From a virus, in IMG/VR virus record IMGVR_UViG_3300043436_003421, positions 1 to 20,712 of that record: a DNA stretch of 20,712 nt, one strand, 5' to 3'. The notes below the pieces were generated by a model that did no database searches, was not told the DNA's origin, and saw only the letters and a list, made by a program, of their open reading frames with translations. This document shows positions 6,295-20,427 of this stretch, in pieces. Position 1 is the first letter of the stretch. Each line of letters begins with the position of its first letter. A program made the position numbers and the translations under genes.

Positions 6295-6969
6295 ATGATA
6301 ATAGGAATAAGTGGCTACTCAGGATCAGGAAAAGATACAGTTGGTGCAATTATACAGTATCTCAATTGTTATAATGTAGGTGATCTAACTATAGATGACA
6401 TACTTAAAGACTATATCAGTCATGAGTGGTGGCTAGAAGAACAATCAGGATGGGAAGTCAAAAAGTTTGCAGGGAAGCTAAAACAAATAGCTTCTCTGCT
6501 TACTGGTATTGATATGCAAAAGTTTGAGGATCAAGAATTTAAGAAATTAAATCTTGGACCTGAATGGAGTATACATGGAATGCCAATGACATATAGAGAG
6601 CTTTTACAAAAGCTTGGTACAGATGCATTACGAGATGGTCTTCATCCTAATATATGGGTAAATGCCCTATTTTCTGACTATAAAGTATTTAATGAACCAA
6701 GTATGTATCCAAATGGTGGAGGAGGTAAACATCCTAATTGGATAATTACAGATGTTAGATTTCCTAATGAAGCCAAAGCCATTAAAGATAGAGGTGGTAT
6801 AATTATTAGAGTAGATAGACCATTCTGTAAGCCAATAAATAATCATCCATCTGAGATATCTCTTGACAACTGGAATTTTGATTATAAAATTGCCAATGTA
6901 TCAGATCTTACATCTCTCTCATTTACAGTAGAGGGAATTTTATTACAAGAAAAAATTTTAATTAAGTAA
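6295..6969 (+). CDS. Deoxynucleoside monophosphate kinase (P-loop), 224 aa
   Basis: Walker A is clear at residues 4-15 (GISGYSGSGKDT, K13). Later conserved segments match the phage T4 gp1-like dNMP kinase family: RELLQKLGTDALRDGLHPNIWV (near 100-121) and IITDVRFPNEAKAI (near 151-164), where the TDVRFPNEA motif is characteristic. The enzyme would phosphorylate dNMPs to dNDPs with ATP in the cytoplasm, feeding the phage polymerase with precursors recovered from host DNA. The length is close to the family norm. It lies upstream of the radical SAM gene and PolB in the same transcription unit. Family assignment is strong; which dNMPs it accepts, including any modified base, is unknown. Confidence 0.9.
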   Translation: MIIGISGYSGSGKDTVGAIIQYLNCYNVGDLTIDDILKDYISHEWWLEEQSGWEVKKFAGKLKQIASLLTGIDMQKFEDQEFKKLNLGPEWSIHGMPMTYRELLQKLGTDALRDGLHPNIWVNALFSDYKVFNEPSMYPNGGGGKHPNWIITDVRFPNEAKAIKDRGGIIIRVDRPFCKPINNHPSEISLDNWNFDYKIANVSDLTSLSFTVEGILLQEKILIK

Positions 6970-6980
6970 AAAATACAATT

Positions 6981-7271
6981 ATGTATAATAATGATGCAAT
7001 GAATTCAATGCCTGCAGAACCAGTAGAAGATAGACCAAGAAATCCCATTGATCAAATGGAAGTTCCAAGACCAATAGATCTTACAGATCAGCAGATCTTA
7101 CAACAGTATGAAATAAGAATTGAATTCTTAGATAGAGGTGCTATTGTAAGAATTGGATGTAAAGCTATTGCATTTGAAAAAGCTCAAGATGCTATAACAA
7201 GTATTGATGCTTATGTAAAAGATCCAAAAGGTGTTGGAAAAGAATGGAGAAAACAATTTAATATGGTTTAA
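6981..7271 (+). CDS. Hypothetical protein (96 aa)
   Basis: Two parts are seen. Residues 1-35 are Pro/Asn/Met-rich and probably disordered. Residues 40-95 form a compact beta-alpha region (YEIRIEFLDRGAIVRIGCKAIAFEKAQDAI, then a helix and KDPKGVGKEWRKQF). The DRGxIVRIGCKxIAFE segment looks like a conserved core that I recall from short gut phage proteins. No catalytic or nucleic-acid-binding motif is assigned. It stands 11 bp after dNMP kinase and 3 bp before the SPL-like gene. Function unknown. Confidence 0.82.
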   Translation: MYNNDAMNSMPAEPVEDRPRNPIDQMEVPRPIDLTDQQILQQYEIRIEFLDRGAIVRIGCKAIAFEKAQDAITSIDAYVKDPKGVGKEWRKQFNMV

Positions 7272-7274
7272 TTA

Positions 7275-8126
7275 ATGAAGATAATTAAGCAGAAAACTAA
7301 AACCCTCATAACCAAAGATAATGGGAGAAGCTCAGATGCAGTTTCTCCCAATTTTGTCTATGGATGTTTGGGAGGCTGTATGAAGTCCTACTGCTATGTA
7401 GGAAGATACAACCACGACAAGGTATATATAAATGAAAATATAGATCAGATATTAACATCTATAAATAACTGGGTAGAAAAACAAGAATGGCCTAAAAAAC
7501 CTAATCAATGTGATCCAAAGTACTATACTATAGATATAGGCTGTAGCACAGATATACCATTAATGCATAAGCATTATGATTGGTATAGAGTTTTTAGATT
7601 TTTTAATCAAATAGAAAGTATAAAAAGTACATTTGCAACTAAGTATCCTACTCATTTTCGTCCAGAGTGGTATGATGTCAATCTAGATAAGCATAGAATA
7701 AGAGTGAGCTTGATGCCCCAGAAGTATTCCAGTGTTCTAGAACCAAATACAGATCTTATATCTGATCGCATACAATCTATTCCAAATCTTCAAAAATATA
7801 TGGAAGTACATATAAATTACAGTCCTATTATTTACGAACAGGGATGGCTGGATGAGTACAGAAAGCTATTTGAGGAAGTGAAGGCTGCTGGTATAGATGT
7901 TAAATGTGAGTGTATCTTCTTGACACACAATAAGTTTCAGCATGAAAGGAATTCAGAAGAAGTGAGAGAGCTTCTATGGAAACCTGAAATACAAGAAGCT
8001 AAAGATTCAGAATATGCTCCAGATAATATTAGATATGAACGCGAATTAAAGAGTCAGATGATAAGAGATTTTGTATCTTTGTATACTGAGTACTTTGATA
8101 GATCAAATATTAGGTACATCTTTTAA
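7275..8126 (+). CDS. Spore-photoproduct-lyase-like radical SAM protein with atypical cysteine spacing (283 aa)
   Basis: The protein parallels SPL along its length. The cluster motif is at residues 29-42 (YGCLGGCMKSYCYV; C31, C35, C40). GCSTDI (C90) corresponds to the ACTSDI region of Bacillus SPL that contains its H-atom donor cysteine. STFATKYP (near 117) matches the SPL RFVTKY strand. VSLMPQKYSSVLEPNTDLISDRI (near 138-160), YSPIIYEQGWLDEYRKLFEE (near 181-200) and a C-terminal RYIF complete the match. Radical SAM enzymes of this group cleave SAM at a 4Fe-4S cluster; SPL repairs thymine spore photoproduct. The odd point is CX3CX4C instead of CX3CX2C, a two-residue insertion that may alter or abolish cluster binding. 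It lies between nucleotide metabolism and PolB. Substrate is unknown: DNA repair or base modification is possible. Confidence 0.82.
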   Translation: MKIIKQKTKTLITKDNGRSSDAVSPNFVYGCLGGCMKSYCYVGRYNHDKVYINENIDQILTSINNWVEKQEWPKKPNQCDPKYYTIDIGCSTDIPLMHKHYDWYRVFRFFNQIESIKSTFATKYPTHFRPEWYDVNLDKHRIRVSLMPQKYSSVLEPNTDLISDRIQSIPNLQKYMEVHINYSPIIYEQGWLDEYRKLFEEVKAAGIDVKCECIFLTHNKFQHERNSEEVRELLWKPEIQEAKDSEYAPDNIRYERELKSQMIRDFVSLYTEYFDRSNIRYIF

Positions 8127-8135
8127 TTAATTATT

Positions 8136-10202
8136 ATGATAATTGCAAACGGAAAAGATTATAAAATAGGAATATTTGATATTGAGACATTAAAATGTTT
8201 CTTTGATTATGGTCTATATGATCCAGATACAAAAGAATGGATAGAGTTTGAGGTTAGTGAATATAAGAATGATCTATATAAACTTGTAAGTTTCTATTTA
8301 GATAATAAATATAACTATCATGTAAGCTTTAATGGTATTGGATTTGACCATCAAGTAATGCAGTTTATACTTATAAACTATAATGACTGGTATGATCTCT
8401 CTAATATAGAAATATGTGGAAAGATTTATCAGTTTGTACAACAGCATATTGATAATCAAAAATATCAAATACCTTTACCTTATAGAGAGAGTGACTTTCC
8501 TGTAGCACCTATTGATTTGTTTAAGATACATCACTTTGATAATGAGTCAAGAAGAACCTCATTAAAGTGGTGTGCATTTATGTTAAATCAAGATGTAGAG
8601 GAGATGCCAATAGCTCATGATATTGAATCTGTTACACCTGAACAAATAGAGATAATCAAGTTATATAGAAGAAATGACTGTCTTGTTACTGAAGCTTTAT
8701 TAAATCTTACTATTGGTAATGTGGATCTTCCAGAACTTAAAGATTATAAAGGTAAGAATAAGATTCAGGATAGATTTGATGTAATGAAGGAAACAGGACT
8801 GCAGTGTTTAAATTGGAGCGATGTTAAGATAGGTGAAGAATGGAATAAACTAGAATATAAACTGCAGGAAGGAATAGAAGATGATTCTACTTTATTTAGT
8901 AAAAATATAAAGCATCCATATGGACAAAAGTTTAAAAACTTTTTCCCACCTACTGTAGTCTTCAAGACAGAAAAGTTAGCTCAGTTCCAAACTGAATTAG
9001 GTAATGAATATGTTAAGAATCTAAAACAAGAATTTCCTATAGTTATAGGTAAGACAACTTATACTGTAGCAAAGGGTGGTTTGCATTCTACAGAATCTCA
9101 TAGAAAGATAGAGACTCCAAGTGGATGGATAACAAGAGATGCAGATGTTGGATCTCAGTATCCAAATTTTATAGCAAAGAATGATGTCTATCCAAAACAT
9201 CTAAAGCCCACAATAATTAAACAATTTAAAGAGAAAATTACCAGAAGGATAGTACTTAAAACAAAAGCAAAGAAGGAGACTAATCCTGTAACTGCTAGAG
9301 AGTATATGTCTGTTCAGGAAATGTTAAAGCTCTGTCTAAATGGTGGTTATTATGGTAAATTAAATCAACAGGGATCATTTCTAGAATATCCAGAAGGTAT
9401 GCTTAGAGTAACTATTGGGTGTCAAATGGAGATTCTTTTGTTGATTGAGATGTTAGAGTCTGCAGGTATAACTGTAATATCTGGAAATACTGATGGTGTA
9501 GTATCTACATTTCATGAGTCTAAGTCAGAAGAATATGCAAGAGTATGTACAGAGTGGGAAAATATTGTAGGTAATAATGAGCTAGGTAAACTTGAATATG
9601 TTGATTTCTCAGTATTATGGCAAGAAAGTATTAATCATTATATTGCTGTAAAATTAGATGGATCTGTCAAGAAGAAGGGTAGATTTATGACTGAGTTTGA
9701 AATAAATAAGAATAAGAGTAAAAGAATAATAAATCTTGCACTCGAGGCTTATTTTGTACATAAGAAAGATCCTATTGAGTTTATTACATCTCATGACAAT
9801 ATATTTGACTTTTGTATAGCAAAGAAAGCTTCTGGAAGCATGCACTATGAAGAAATTATAGAGACTGATGACAGAAATGATCCTGAAATCGTGAAACATA
9901 AGAAACTAATTAGATATTATGTCTCAAAAAGTGGAAATGTTTTTATGAAAAGAGGGTTTGATTATGAAGGAAAACCTGTAAATTCGCATTGTGAAGCTAC
10001 TGATAAAGATTACTTTTGGATGGGACAACCTAAACTAAAGTACTTCAATAAGTATTATTTTAATGGAAGCATGGAAAAGTATGACATTGATTATTCATAC
10101 TATATATTACAAACTCTCAAAAGGATAGATAGCATAGAAAAAACTAATAAGGCATTAAGTTATGCTAATAGTTTTAAAACAAAACAATATTCTTTATTCT
10201 AA
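8136..10202 (+). CDS. Family B DNA polymerase with 3'-5' exonuclease (688 aa)
   Basis: This is the replicative polymerase of the phage. Exonuclease motifs are complete: Exo I D15-x-E17 (FDIET), Exo II N66 to D71 (FNGIGFDHQ) and Exo III Y177-x3-D181 (YRRND). Polymerase motifs follow: motif A D337 (DVGSQYP), motif B K398-x3-N402 to G407 (KLCLNGGYYG) and motif C N451-T452-D453-G454 (GNTDGV), then a KKKGRF element. In most family B enzymes motif C is DTDS; here the first Asp is Asn and Ser is Gly. The acidic pair D337 and D453, corresponding to the main metal ligands, is kept, so activity is likely. The 688-aa length is shorter than cellular or T4 enzymes. It is flanked by the SPL-like gene (9-bp gap) and two small genes before DnaB. 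Confidence 0.93.
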   Translation: MIIANGKDYKIGIFDIETLKCFFDYGLYDPDTKEWIEFEVSEYKNDLYKLVSFYLDNKYNYHVSFNGIGFDHQVMQFILINYNDWYDLSNIEICGKIYQFVQQHIDNQKYQIPLPYRESDFPVAPIDLFKIHHFDNESRRTSLKWCAFMLNQDVEEMPIAHDIESVTPEQIEIIKLYRRNDCLVTEALLNLTIGNVDLPELKDYKGKNKIQDRFDVMKETGLQCLNWSDVKIGEEWNKLEYKLQEGIEDDSTLFSKNIKHPYGQKFKNFFPPTVVFKTEKLAQFQTELGNEYVKNLKQEFPIVIGKTTYTVAKGGLHSTESHRKIETPSGWITRDADVGSQYPNFIAKNDVYPKHLKPTIIKQFKEKITRRIVLKTKAKKETNPVTAREYMSVQEMLKLCLNGGYYGKLNQQGSFLEYPEGMLRVTIGCQMEILLLIEMLESAGITVISGNTDGVVSTFHESKSEEYARVCTEWENIVGNNELGKLEYVDFSVLWQESINHYIAVKLDGSVKKKGRFMTEFEINKNKSKRIINLALEAYFVHKKDPIEFITSHDNIFDFCIAKKASGSMHYEEIIETDDRNDPEIVKHKKLIRYYVSKSGNVFMKRGFDYEGKPVNSHCEATDKDYFWMGQPKLKYFNKYYFNGSMEKYDIDYSYYILQTLKRIDSIEKTNKALSYANSFKTKQYSLF

Positions 10203-14762: not shown

Positions 14763-15626
14763 ATGATAAAAGGAAAAGAACAACAGCAAACAAAAAGAAG
14801 AGAAAAGTATGAAGGTCTTACTACAGTATCAGTAAGAGCAGTTAATCCAACAAGAGCCCAAATTGATAAACTCTTAAAGAGAGAAACAATTGAAGATGGT
14901 ATGGACCCTGAATACCTCTCTCAAGATCAAGATGGAAATCAAAAAGTATCTATTAACTTCTGGTTATATTCAGAAGAATTAGATCATTACTTTATTCACA
15001 GTATTTGGTTAACAAATAAAGTAAAAGAATCAAAAGATGGTTTAAAGAAACAGTATGTAAATAGCACATGTTCTACATTCTATGTAGATGATCCTGCAAA
15101 TCTTCCTACTAACTTTACTACATTTTTAAGTAAAACCAAAGATGAGTTAGGTTATAAAAGATTCAGAGAAGCTTTAGTAGGTGAACAAGAAATGTGTGTA
15201 TTGTTAACTTCTTGGTTAGGAAGAATTAAATGGGTAGATCCTGAGACAGATGTACTTCTTGAAACAGATCAGTTATTTAAAGGTAACTATAAGGAACTTC
15301 AAGATTTAGTAGATGGTAATTATGATACACCTTTTGTTGCACTGACTGGTGTTAAAACAAAGGATACAGGTGAACAATATCAAACTATCTTTAATAAGAT
15401 GTTCTTGCCTGCAAGTTTCATGAACTATATCTCTAAAGGAAAAGTGTTTCCAACTGACTACACTAAGAAGATCTGGAACAAATTTAACACTGAAGTTTCA
15501 GGTGAATATGGATTCAATGCATATTATAACTTAGATGTAGCAAAAGTTTATGATCAGTCAAAAGACTTAGCTGCTTCAGTAGTTACAAAAGTAGATGAGG
15601 TAAAACCTACTAACTCTAAGTTTTAG
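14763..15626 (+). CDS. Probable single-stranded DNA-binding protein (287 aa)
   Basis: The protein has a basic head (MIKGKEQQQTKRREKYEG), a beta-rich core with NFWLYSEELDHYFIHSIWLTN (near 61-81) and YVNSTCSTFYVDD, a conserved-looking helix YKRFREALVGEQEMCVLLTSWLG (near 131-153), and a C-terminal tail that ends in flexible Lys/Val/Asp residues (VTKVDEVKPTNSKF). This layout, abundant aromatic beta strands followed by a variable tail, fits a phage SSB, and it is paired with the Sak4-like ATPase after a 19-bp gap and followed by a strong terminator, as for an abundantly made protein. No OB-fold signature is diagnostic by eye, so the call rests on arrangement and partial recollection of crAss-like homologs. 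Confidence 0.6.
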   Translation: MIKGKEQQQTKRREKYEGLTTVSVRAVNPTRAQIDKLLKRETIEDGMDPEYLSQDQDGNQKVSINFWLYSEELDHYFIHSIWLTNKVKESKDGLKKQYVNSTCSTFYVDDPANLPTNFTTFLSKTKDELGYKRFREALVGEQEMCVLLTSWLGRIKWVDPETDVLLETDQLFKGNYKELQDLVDGNYDTPFVALTGVKTKDTGEQYQTIFNKMFLPASFMNYISKGKVFPTDYTKKIWNKFNTEVSGEYGFNAYYNLDVAKVYDQSKDLAASVVTKVDEVKPTNSKF

Positions 15627-16700: not shown

Positions 16701-17417
16701 ATGGAAAAGATGGATTATGAAGACTTTGCTGATAAGTTTGGAAAATGGGCACCATTATTCAAAAAGTTTATAGAAAGTAAAGATATGTTTGATATCTATG
16801 CTAGATTAAAAGCAGATGCTCAAACAGATATAATAGTTCCAGGACATGAAAATGTATTTAAAGTATTTCAACTCACTGATCCTGATGATATAAAATGTGT
16901 GTTCTATTTAATGGACCCATATCCTAAAAAATATAAGAATGGTGTACTACATGCAACTGGTATACCAATGGATTGCTCAAATACTCCTGATGGTAAAATA
17001 CAACCTAGTCTACAGAAATTTTATGAAGGTATTGAGAGAAATTTGAAAACTAAGTTTCCTGATTCTCCAAGTCTTAAGTATTTACTTGATCAGGGTTGTC
17101 TCCTTCTAAATACAGATTTAACATGTAAGTTGAATAAGACATCTTCTCATAAAGGTCTCTGGGTAAAATTTCAACAGTATTTCTTAGAGCAAATAATGTA
17201 TGATAAAATAGGCGTAACTTATGTTCTATGTGGTGATGTCTCTCATAAAATGGAGAGGTTTATAAATCCAATAGGTAATTTTATATATAAGCTAGAACAT
17301 CCTGTTTCTGCTAGTTATAAAAACTTAGATTGGAATCACAAGAATATATTTACAATTATTAATAGAATAGCAAAGGATTATGGAAAGAAGGAAATTGATT
17401 GGAAACCTAAAATTTAG
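16701..17417 (+). CDS. ung: Uracil-DNA glycosylase, family 1-like (238 aa)
   Basis: Diagnostic motifs: LMDPYP (residues 70-75; D72 is the water-activating Asp), PSLQKFYEGI (102-111), LLNTDLT (134-140ff; N137 for uracil recognition), HSH-like SSHKGLW (148-154) and EHPVSAS (199-205; H200 in the minor-groove loop). Family 1 enzymes usually read GQDPYH, and here Q is replaced by Met; the DPYP form recalls poxvirus D4. The Phe that stacks on uracil (LAFSV in E. coli) lines up with Met90 (GIPMDC), so pocket geometry may differ. The enzyme excises uracil from DNA. It lies 4 bp after primase and 3 bp before the rIIA-like gene, in a replication/repair context; an additional structural role is possible. 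Confidence 0.87.
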   Translation: MEKMDYEDFADKFGKWAPLFKKFIESKDMFDIYARLKADAQTDIIVPGHENVFKVFQLTDPDDIKCVFYLMDPYPKKYKNGVLHATGIPMDCSNTPDGKIQPSLQKFYEGIERNLKTKFPDSPSLKYLLDQGCLLLNTDLTCKLNKTSSHKGLWVKFQQYFLEQIMYDKIGVTYVLCGDVSHKMERFINPIGNFIYKLEHPVSASYKNLDWNHKNIFTIINRIAKDYGKKEIDWKPKI

Positions 17418-17420
17418 AAA

Positions 17421-19751
17421 ATGCAACAATTAAAGTTAAGTAGTAACACAGCCAAACTTCATCAAATGTTTGGTAAGAGATTGTATTCTGATAAGTACAG
17501 TTTTGTATCTGAGATATGTCAGAATGCAGTTGATAGTCATAGGATGTCTGGCCAAACTAAACCAGTTGAAGTTGGAGTATATGATTATAAAAATGAGTAT
17601 GGATATAGAAAGTACATATTTTATGTAAGAGATATCGGTTTATCTTTTGAAGATAAAGAAGATTTTATAAAGAAAGTATGTACAATATTAGAAAGTGGTA
17701 AGACTGAGAGTAAAACTAATGATGAAAACTGTGCAATGGGAATGCATGGTATTGGTAGTATCTCAGTATCTGCATTTAATTCTGAATGGAACTATACTAT
17801 AATAACTCCAAATAAAAAGAAGTTTAAAGCTACATTAAAAGAGCAAGAAGGTATAGGTCTGACATATGATTTATCTGATTATGAAGATACAGATGAAGAA
17901 AAATCTGTACTATTTGAGGTGCAGATTCCTGAACATACTGGAACTACTAATTTTATTAATGCAATAAAAGCAAAATTAGCTTACTTTAAAGATATACTTT
18001 TTAAGTTTTCTCCTAAAGTAATAGAGGATATGCCTTCATGTCTTACATTAAATACTGAATTTCAGATATTTGAGTCAGAAGATTTTCAGTATAGTACATT
18101 AAATGGTAATACAGCTCTTCATATATCTGTAGATCAATATTCTTATCATATAAGATGGGATATGCTTGGTATGCCAGTAATTGGTAACTTTCCAATTGCT
18201 TTAAAGTTTGGATTAGGTGATGGTCTAACTCCTGATATTACAAGAGAGAATCTTATAATAGATGATAACTATAAACAAATAGTAACTGATAAAATTAAAA
18301 AAGTTGCAGAATGGTTTATAGCTAAGTATAATCAAGGTATTCCTGATCAAGGCTTTGATTCACTAAAGAAATATGAATCTTTTATTGAAGCTGGAACATA
18401 TGTAAAAATCCCTGAGATATCTAAAAACATTAATTTTCCAATAGGAGAGCTTTTAAAACGCTCTGAAACTAAAATTAAAGATATAAACTTAAAAGGTGTT
18501 GATAAAGACATAGTTGTAAATTTTATTACTAATCTTAATGGAGGAAGAAACTTGTATACTCTTCAATATGAGATTGGCAATAAAGGAACTTTAATAAAGA
18601 GAGAAGGTTCTAACTGGAGAGCTTTTAGCTATAATATAAATATCTTAATGGATGTAAATCTAGATAAAAAGAGATCTGCATACTTAAAGACAAAATATCC
18701 AGGGTCAGGTTTATATACAGTAAGAAAGCTTGGAAGGAATAGAAAGTATATTGAAAATTATTATAAGATACCTACTAAAAAGCATATTCTTGAACATTAT
18801 ATAAAGACTGGAGAAAATCTTTATAGATATTATCACCAACAATATACTTTAATGCATGAGTATTTTATAAAGGATAACTTTATAAAACTTTCATCTATTG
18901 AGGTTCCAAAAGATCAAAAAGCTACAATTAAGAAAACATCTGTTTCTTTAAGGAAGACAAAGTTTGATCCTCAGACATTAGCTGGTGAAATTAATCTAAA
19001 GTTTGCAGAGAACTTAACAAGACAGTCACATGATTATTGCTGTAAGTTTACAGATAAAATAATGAATGTGAAAGATCTTTTTAAGGTTAGAGAGTTTGTT
19101 ATTTATGGTAAAAATGAAGATAGAAATTCTCTTGATAGATTACATAAGATGATTGGTTATGTAAGTCCATGGGAATCAAAGGGCAGAGTACCAAATAACA
19201 ATATTAGAATTTGTATGGTTGGTGAAACAGACTTTAAAGTTCTTAACAAATTAAATCTTCACAATTTTATGGAAGTAAAAGATTTTACAGAAGGAAAACA
19301 TAGATTTTTTGGTGATGTAATGACTGCATATTTAATACAAAGAGATATATTAAAAAAGTATAATAGAATAATAGATAAAAGAAATAATATTAAAAACTTT
19401 ATCTCTGAAGATTTATATAACAGAATTGAGAAGTTAATTACTTATACAAAGAAATATAGACCTGATGCATATCTTGACTCATATAGATATGGAAATCTTG
19501 AAGAAGATAAGTTTACAAAAGATTTATTATCAATTTTCCATGAGAAGAGACTTCGTGATGAAACTATTTGGGAAGATGCAAAGTTTGTTTTAGATAATAT
19601 CTGCAGGGTTGAAACAGTTCAGTATTTTCCAGATACTGGTGCAGACAGTAAGCAGATTGCAATTATGCAAGATGTTGCAAAATACAGAAAGCTTAAGTTA
19701 GATCTAAAACATTATAAATCTACTAAAGATGAGTCTAAAGAAAGCATCTGA
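17421..19751 (+). CDS. rIIA: rIIA-like GHKL ATPase (776 aa)
   Basis: A GHKL (Bergerat) ATP-binding fold is clear in the first 120 residues: N-box E31-xx-x-N35-A-x-D38 (EICQNAVDSH), D71-x-G73 (VRDIGLSF) and the glycine lid G107-M-H-G-I-G112 (CAMGMHGIGSIS). The rest is long, with no further motif I can name. T4 rIIA is a GHKL-domain protein of about the same length (about 725 aa) and similar lid, so this is the best match; MutL-, Hsp90- and gyrase-type relatives share only the N-terminal fold. T4 rIIA acts at the membrane against exclusion by lambda rex and affects lysis. Here the gene lies in the replication unit, immediately after UDG, and overlaps the next gene by 23 bp, which is where an rIIB partner would be expected. 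Confidence 0.8.
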   Translation: MQQLKLSSNTAKLHQMFGKRLYSDKYSFVSEICQNAVDSHRMSGQTKPVEVGVYDYKNEYGYRKYIFYVRDIGLSFEDKEDFIKKVCTILESGKTESKTNDENCAMGMHGIGSISVSAFNSEWNYTIITPNKKKFKATLKEQEGIGLTYDLSDYEDTDEEKSVLFEVQIPEHTGTTNFINAIKAKLAYFKDILFKFSPKVIEDMPSCLTLNTEFQIFESEDFQYSTLNGNTALHISVDQYSYHIRWDMLGMPVIGNFPIALKFGLGDGLTPDITRENLIIDDNYKQIVTDKIKKVAEWFIAKYNQGIPDQGFDSLKKYESFIEAGTYVKIPEISKNINFPIGELLKRSETKIKDINLKGVDKDIVVNFITNLNGGRNLYTLQYEIGNKGTLIKREGSNWRAFSYNINILMDVNLDKKRSAYLKTKYPGSGLYTVRKLGRNRKYIENYYKIPTKKHILEHYIKTGENLYRYYHQQYTLMHEYFIKDNFIKLSSIEVPKDQKATIKKTSVSLRKTKFDPQTLAGEINLKFAENLTRQSHDYCCKFTDKIMNVKDLFKVREFVIYGKNEDRNSLDRLHKMIGYVSPWESKGRVPNNNIRICMVGETDFKVLNKLNLHNFMEVKDFTEGKHRFFGDVMTAYLIQRDILKKYNRIIDKRNNIKNFISEDLYNRIEKLITYTKKYRPDAYLDSYRYGNLEEDKFTKDLLSIFHEKRLRDETIWEDAKFVLDNICRVETVQYFPDTGADSKQIAIMQDVAKYRKLKLDLKHYKSTKDESKESI

Positions 19752-20427
19752 TGTAAATTACATGTCTTTTGAAGAATTTCTTAAAATTGAAGATGAAGAT
19801 TTAAAAAAGTATTTATTTTCCACAAAATCGATAGGTCTGTTTAAGATTGAAACTAGATTTTATGAAAATGATAAAAAGATAGCTTTTTATAATTCTTCAA
19901 AACAAATAAAAAAGAATACTTCAGGTAAATTCTATGTAAAAGATACTTTAAATGAATGGATAGTTTATGAAAAGAGCTCGGGGAAGATAAAAATATCTTC
20001 CTCGAATGCTCACATAAAAGAGTTCTTTATGAATTACTACTTCAAAAGTGAAAAGATGATATCAATGTTTTTTCCTCAATGGAGGATTACAAAATCTTTT
20101 ATAAAAAGAGTAATTGAAGACAAGATAAATACTACAGAAGATATACTAAAGTATATTAAGTCCTATATTATTAAGAATAAGAATATATCTATAGATCAAG
20201 TTTACAGATTATGTACTCATGGAATAAAAAACTATAGTATTATAAATGTATTCAAAGATCCTGAAAACCTACTATTTAATGATGATTTCTTTAAGTATCA
20301 TAATGCAGTTTCAGAATTACATGGTAAAGGATACTTTAAAATAGAGGTTTCTGATTTATCTAAAGTTACAAAAATGGTTGACGATTATGAAAAAAGACAA
20401 GGTGAAAAAACTATTGATGTCTCCTGA
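19729..20427 (+). CDS. Hypothetical protein after rIIA-like gene (232 aa); candidate rIIB-like partner
   Basis: ATG 19729 overlaps the rIIA-like gene by 23 bp; a second possible start is MSFEEFLK 11 codons on. The N-terminal part is acidic and helical (EFLKIEDEDLKKYLF), the middle is beta-rich (IAFYNSSKQIKK, KFYVKDTLNEWIVYE), and the C-terminal half is basic and helical (WRITKSFIKRVIEDKI, ILKYIKSYIIKNKN, IDQVYRLCTHGIK). In T4 rIIA is always followed by rIIB, and crAss-like phages are reported to carry both, so rIIB is a positional suggestion; I cannot see a rIIB motif. Function unknown. Confidence 0.85.
   Translation: MSLKKASDVNYMSFEEFLKIEDEDLKKYLFSTKSIGLFKIETRFYENDKKIAFYNSSKQIKKNTSGKFYVKDTLNEWIVYEKSSGKIKISSSNAHIKEFFMNYYFKSEKMISMFFPQWRITKSFIKRVIEDKINTTEDILKYIKSYIIKNKNISIDQVYRLCTHGIKNYSIINVFKDPENLLFNDDFFKYHNAVSELHGKGYFKIEVSDLSKVTKMVDDYEKRQGEKTIDVS

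Follow-up and report, generated by a model that had tools for sequence, protein, structure and literature searches.

A spore photoproduct lyase-like, putative radical-SAM protein with a CX3CX4C cluster motif in a phage replication module

Spore photoproduct lyase (SPL) chemistry is known from endospores. An SPL-like gene among the replication genes of a phage raises the question of which reaction its product would carry out, and whether it could do so with two extra residues in the cluster motif. The gene (7275..8126) encodes a 283-aa SPL-like, putative radical-SAM protein of the CX3CX4C form. It lies in the window, by which we mean the whole stretch of 20,712 nucleotides analyzed here (IMG/VR virus record IMGVR_UViG_3300043436_003421); window features whose coordinates are written below in this form (start..end) are on the plus strand.

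Relation of the phage protein to SPL

A sequence-only reading of this locus had proposed an SPL homolog with an altered cluster motif, and translation of the open reading frame confirmed its coordinates and all quoted residues and motifs. The cluster stretch is GCLGGCMKSYCY, spelled C31-LGG-C35-MKSY-C40-Y, and the further motifs are DIGCSTD (with C90), STFATKYP, SLMPQ..EPNTD and IIYEQGW. In the alignment of 266 distinct homologs, the expected [4Fe-4S]/SAM loop is C31-x3-C35-x4-C40-Y41 (7365..7397), and the two-residue insert that lengthens the spacing from C35 to C40 is M36-K37 (7380..7385). Alignment with B. subtilis SPL equates Y39 with Y97, Y41 with Y99, and C90 (7542..7544) with the H-atom donor C141, the C90 column being ungapped, so that the donor position is retained as had been claimed; K123 and S145 occupy the positions of K175 and S196. 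The region of the SPL C-terminal hairpin, assigned from column counts, is K243-Y254 (8001..8036), where Y247 corresponds to Y306 and E246 to R305.

The best family match is to TIGR03886 (spore photoproduct lyase family, NCBIfam), which covers residues 7-283 with model positions 62-346 of 346 (E 1.7e-59). The score of 201.7 bits is under the model cut-off of 437.55, as are the scores of the CX2C phage and Lewinella homologs (317-323 bits). The protein exceeds the cut-off of PF20903 (SPL; 40.5 vs 27 bits) and falls far below that of the true SPL equivalog TIGR04070 (41.6 vs 400 bits). The homology, earlier described as full length, does extend through the C-terminus, whereas the N-terminal ~60 model residues are missing.

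The AlphaFold2 model, based on a 55-sequence alignment, has a pLDDT of 90.6 and a pTM of 0.89, with only 60-65 for residues 31-50. The six best Foldseek matches in the PDB are all Geobacillus SPL (TM 0.81-0.82, E 1e-14 to 1e-15, best 2.4e-15), and the next-best match is a non-SPL protein at E 1.7e-3. A single-sequence phmmer search of the PDB gave nothing real, and SPL chains emerged only with a profile; with SPL rows included in the profile, they were the sole strong matches (E about 1e-103). Solved SPL structures are thus the only strong fold matches, in agreement with the proposed homology. By the features of the radical-SAM superfamily, the SPL-type barrel fold is matched, and the poorly modeled loop has CX3CX4C in place of the CX3CX2C spacing, as do 72/72 sequences of its clade; the equivalents of the donor Cys141 and of Tyr97 and Tyr99 are present as C90, Y39 and Y41. 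The window protein belongs to the SPL superfamily in a form shortened at the N-terminus, and its score, spacing and N-terminus place it outside the SPL equivalog.

Conservation and origin of the CX3CX4C form

The two-residue insert is real, being filled in 72/72 CX4C sequences and a gap in all 194 CX2C homologs. The CX4C spacing is shared by 67/67 distinct phage sequences of the group and five proteins encoded on the chromosomes of Neolewinella, Lewinella and Candidatus Odyssella, with the consensus C-x-[GA]-G-C-x-x-[ST]-Y-C-Y; L364 is another Odyssella-order genome that has it. With the motif and donor columns masked, the tree still groups the CX4C set as a single clade (97/88; recovered in 99% of 200 bootstrap trees), whose nearest neighbors are CX2C phage proteins, and an earlier unmasked tree recovered the clade too; both trees left out an extra X4 phage subgroup (L279, L282, L283, L287 and L288) with the motif CNAGCSNSYCYT and the donor CDTD or CDVD. 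Since the clade survives masking next to CX2C phage proteins, the insertion, common to phage and bacterial forms, probably arose once. The earlier reading had allowed that X4 might be an isolated event among CX3CX2C homologs. Its presence in all 67 phage sequences and in all cellular members of the clade, 72 distinct sequences altogether, rules out an isolated error or one-off substitution, and X4 instead defines a clade. The members in Neolewinella/Lewinella and in the Odyssella order likewise rule out a phage-only invention.

A scan of the Lewinella order (299 genomes) and class (395 genomes) revealed no intact CX4C genes beyond those known in the Lewinella group, the one partial match (G090) being without the motif region. 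Neolewinella maritima has two near-identical CX4C genes (L050 and L051) 18 kb apart on one contig. In L157 and L038 the SPL-like gene is split over two reading frames, possibly by a frameshift or a sequencing error.

The residues of the radical-transfer path are strongly conserved. C31, C35, C40 and Y39 are invariant in the 266 distinct homologs and Y41 is present in all but three. The equivalents of C141, Y97 and Y99 are kept in nearly all of the 180 distinct phage sequences, and 72/72 CX4C sequences retain the three cysteines, both tyrosines and the donor cysteine, as well as the invariant residues K123 and S145. The values of dN/dS among close phage pairs (0.05-0.18) indicate that the gene is under purifying selection. 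The donor column is Cys in 67/67 phage CX4C, 5/5 cellular CX4C and 110/113 phage CX2C sequences. Of the cellular CX2C sequences of TIGR03886 type (e.g. L071, L042 and L057), 74/78 instead carry Glu, and calling these members of a 'spore photoproduct lyase family' may therefore mislead. The published path in SPL (PMC3742179) has C141 donating an H atom to the thymine radical, and Y99, assisted by Y97, passing the radical back to 5'-deoxyadenosine. At these positions, the phage enzymes resemble a working SPL more than most of the cellular proteins that bear its name do.

Several sequences vary at these positions: phages L034-L037 have Thr at the donor position, phages L294, L297 and L299 have Thr for the second tyrosine (CTYCT) and keep the donor Cys, and a donor Cys is present in Corallococcus (L054-L056), a Cytophagales MAG (L053) and other Bacteroidota-class genomes (L361-L363). 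In the hairpin, where R305 and Y306 of SPL touch the lesion, the tyrosine is found in 66/67 phage CX4C and 105/113 phage CX2C sequences and is mostly replaced by Gly, Ser or other residues in cellular TIGR03886 proteins. The hairpin Arg is mostly Gln or Glu in both sets of sequences, so the lesion bound may differ from that of SPL.

Distribution, replication module and apparent exchange of the two forms

Scans of viral contigs returned 40, 374, 318 and at least 543 related contigs in overlapping sets. Three queries of 50,697 deposited phages found no clear member, the one weak partial match being an 18.6-kb fecal record. No PHROGs family was found for the window protein, and a CX2C phage homolog weakly matches phrog_13321 (annotated function unknown); a BFVD fold search gave no clear viral SPL (best TM 0.64/0.41). 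A literature search that covered few subscription papers found none that describes SPL as a phage gene or joins SPL with crAss-like phages.

The window, itself a fragment, has no structural genes. Its complete-looking relative G002 (121 kb, 29-base terminal repeat) encodes a crAss-type capsid protein (PF23898, 8.5e-31), CrAss_Ring_1/2 and crAss_MUZ, and these capsid, ring and muzzle proteins suggest that the lineage is crAss-like. One protein from the virion-gene half of G002 matches Gas_vesicle (PF00741, E 4e-5). Two related phages carry tmRNA (Rfam RF00023), L184 at 14994-15397 on the minus strand (90.8 bits) and L187 at 769-1179 on the plus strand (85.6 bits), the latter after a tRNA-Ile gene; a phage-borne tmRNA may play a role in infection.

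The SPL-like gene is preceded by genes for a deoxynucleoside monophosphate (dNMP) kinase (6295..6969; phrog_139 E 9.9e-43, PF21448 E 7.2e-12) and a small protein with no assigned function (6981..7271), and is followed by that of a family B DNA polymerase, PolB (8136..10202; phrog_1252 E 5.2e-105). The same module includes genes for a DnaB-like helicase, a Sak4-like protein, a primase and a uracil-DNA-glycosylase (UDG)-like protein (16701..17417; phrog_12143 E 2e-31), which bears out the replication operon recognized in the earlier reading. Among the families listed for G002, phrog_12143 and the UDG family PF03167 each have one member, presumably the same protein. The UDG-like protein of the window has the water-activating motif LMDPYP, not GQDPYH, and its specificity may differ. 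Downstream are a 776-aa protein (17421-19751) with a GHKL-ATPase-looking start (NAVDS, RDIGLSF) and a 232-aa protein (19729-20427), a pair that we take to resemble T4 rIIA/rIIB; no PHROG or Pfam family backs that reading.

Within the fetched flanks of 90 related loci, PolB is found near the SPL-like gene on the same strand in 71 and the dNMP kinase in 64. In the CX2C phage lineage, helicase, DnaB, Sak4, UDG and primase genes are neighbors in most loci with any recognized window gene, and the gene is beside a dNMP kinase in 5/159 loci, for which the flanks were shorter.

An apparent exchange of the two forms is seen in L214 (G325), a close relative of the window phage that is collinear with it from window position 2490 on and has a PolB gene 87.6% identical in DNA. 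The alignment runs up to window position 6961 and resumes at 8136, so that 6962-8135, with the small gene and the CX4C gene, is missing, and the kinase and PolB genes of L214 abut. A CX2C homolog is found instead a few kb upstream of the kinase-PolB junction, immediately before the point that corresponds to window 2490. Exactly one SPL-like gene was present in each of the 18 phage records tested, although for G325 the count covers a 14.9-kb contig and a second copy may lie elsewhere in the phage. On the basis of the swap and the single copy per record, the CX4C and CX2C forms look interchangeable, as if one isofunctional gene had replaced another.

Probable function and comparison with known systems

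By combining these observations, we propose, with modest confidence, that the most likely activity of the phage enzyme is the reversal of a thymine lesion in phage DNA, namely the SPL substrate SP (5-thyminyl-5,6-dihydrothymine) or a closely similar photoproduct. In the proposed mechanism, C31, C35 and C40 would hold the [4Fe-4S] cluster, with the insert bulging in the loop, and the cluster would cleave SAM. The 5'-deoxyadenosyl radical would take an H atom from C6 of the 5' thymine, upon which the cross-link breaks; C90 would return an H atom and Y41, with the help of Y39, would relay the radical back. Working beside PolB and UDG, the enzyme would have as its substrate DNA that is entering the cell or being replicated. 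This reading is favored by the SPL-only fold matches and the retention of the C141, Y97 and Y99 positions (and of Y306 in most sequences), by the single origin of the CX4C clade and its purifying selection, by the location in the replication module in most loci of both phage lineages, and by the replacement of CX4C by CX2C in a close relative with a single copy per record. It is further favored by the neighbors of cellular SPL-family genes, which adjoin a photolyase gene or a pair of DEAD helicase and DUF790 genes, and by the UVC induction of an SPL-family gene in Curtobacterium, a desiccation-tolerant non-spore-former (PMC12029717). Weighed against it are the wide miss of the TIGR04070 equivalog, the missing N-terminal ~60 residues, the changed hairpin Arg, the low-confidence model of the CX4C loop, and the conditions under which SP is known to form, dry DNA or the A form (PMC3742179). 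The formation of SP in packed virion DNA is a supposition on our part, and a literature search found no paper on SP forming in virions. None of 15 long relatives has a photolyase.

The loop itself could suggest that proteins of the CX4C clade no longer carry out radical-SAM chemistry and use their fold for DNA binding or damage sensing. Two residues are added to the loop, and low AlphaFold2 confidence is found there in the CX4C form alone (60-65, against 87 in an equally deep CX2C control). Since every ligand and relay residue is kept in 72/72 sequences, a [4Fe-4S] cluster is instead probably bound, and the extra residues could form a bulge that still lets all three cysteines meet; in QueE, a loop insertion (CX14CX2C) still leaves a canonical cluster (PMC4389238). 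We regard the loss of chemistry as very improbable.

Two other readings keep the chemistry and change its target, and we consider each of them unlikely. Together with the neighboring dNMP kinase, the enzyme may modify thymine or a different base, either in the phage DNA or at the level of the dNTP pool, a role consistent with the 64/90 kinase loci and the altered hairpin Arg. The thymidylate-synthase-type enzyme (PF00303) expected as a partner in a hypermodification pathway is nevertheless present in just one of 15 long relatives and absent from the other 14, and among the matches listed for G002 (up to 25 per list) no other base-modification enzyme was recognized; these matches include at least one methyltransferase of unassigned target. 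In the flanks covered, few CX2C loci have the kinase as a neighbor, and a donor Cys that returns an H atom suits repair more than the installation of a group. The base modification beside PolB that the sequence-only reading had suggested thus finds no support, nor does its premise that the phage would have little use for repair, given the retained C141, Y97, Y99 and Y306 positions and the interchange of the two forms. Alternatively, the same radical chemistry may serve the light-independent repair of another lesion (a cyclobutane dimer, a 6-4 product, or an oxidized or alkylated thymine). The hairpin does differ from that of SPL, and a literature search found no assayed substrate for any TIGR03886 protein, but C141, Y97 and Y99 together are the residues that SP chemistry uses, and B. 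subtilis SPL cleaves SP and leaves cyclobutane dimers uncleaved, according to the title of Slieman et al. 2000, a paper cited in PMC12029717.

If reversal of a thymine photoproduct is correct and the phage branch keeps the whole radical-transfer set in use, many uncultured phages would include the radical reversal of lesions in their replication machinery, which raises the testable question of whether SP occurs in packaged viral DNA. More tentatively, a large undescribed family of phage SPL-like enzymes, known from uncultivated contigs and with no clear member among deposited phages, might repair a thymine cross-link of tightly packed virion DNA, with one branch having evolved a working CX3CX4C cluster site. 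The donor Cys is present in the phage proteins and missing from most cellular TIGR03886 proteins despite their database name, and the CX3CX4C clade provides a natural test of how far a radical-SAM cluster loop stretches.

Among known systems, SplB (PF20903, TIGR04070; 4FHC-4FHG, 4K9R, 4RH0) has in common with the window protein the fold, the donor Cys, both relay tyrosines, the hairpin Tyr and the K123/S145 positions. The window protein differs from it in the CX3CX4C loop, the absence of the N-terminal ~60 residues, the replaced hairpin Arg, a score far under the TIGR04070 cut-off, and a gene located in a phage replication operon, not with sporulation. The nearest named cellular family is represented by the TIGR03886 proteins of Methylobacterium, Roseomonas, Deinococcus, Streptomyces and Corallococcus (30-40% identity), with which it shares many family-specific residues, including W235, N251, R253 and K259; unlike the window protein, the bulk of this family has Glu in the donor column and mostly no hairpin Tyr, and every member has CX3CX2C. 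The homologs of Neolewinella/Lewinella and Candidatus Odyssella (L048-L052, L364) are closer, with ~50% identity, CX3CX4C, the CSTD donor motif and the same N-terminal shortening, and form one clade with the phage proteins; their genes are stand-alone and chromosomal, and the flanks read show no recognized phage genes. The second phage lineage, exemplified by L214, is SPL-like and has the donor Cys, the replication-module site and one gene per phage record, but a canonical CX3CX2C loop. No paper naming CX3CX4C was found in a literature search thin on subscription papers. Non-standard spacing of the cluster cysteines is shared with QueE, and with HmdB (CX5CX2C) and ThiC (CX2CX4C) (PMC4389238), whereas in the window protein the extra residues lie between the second and third cysteines of an otherwise SPL-type protein.
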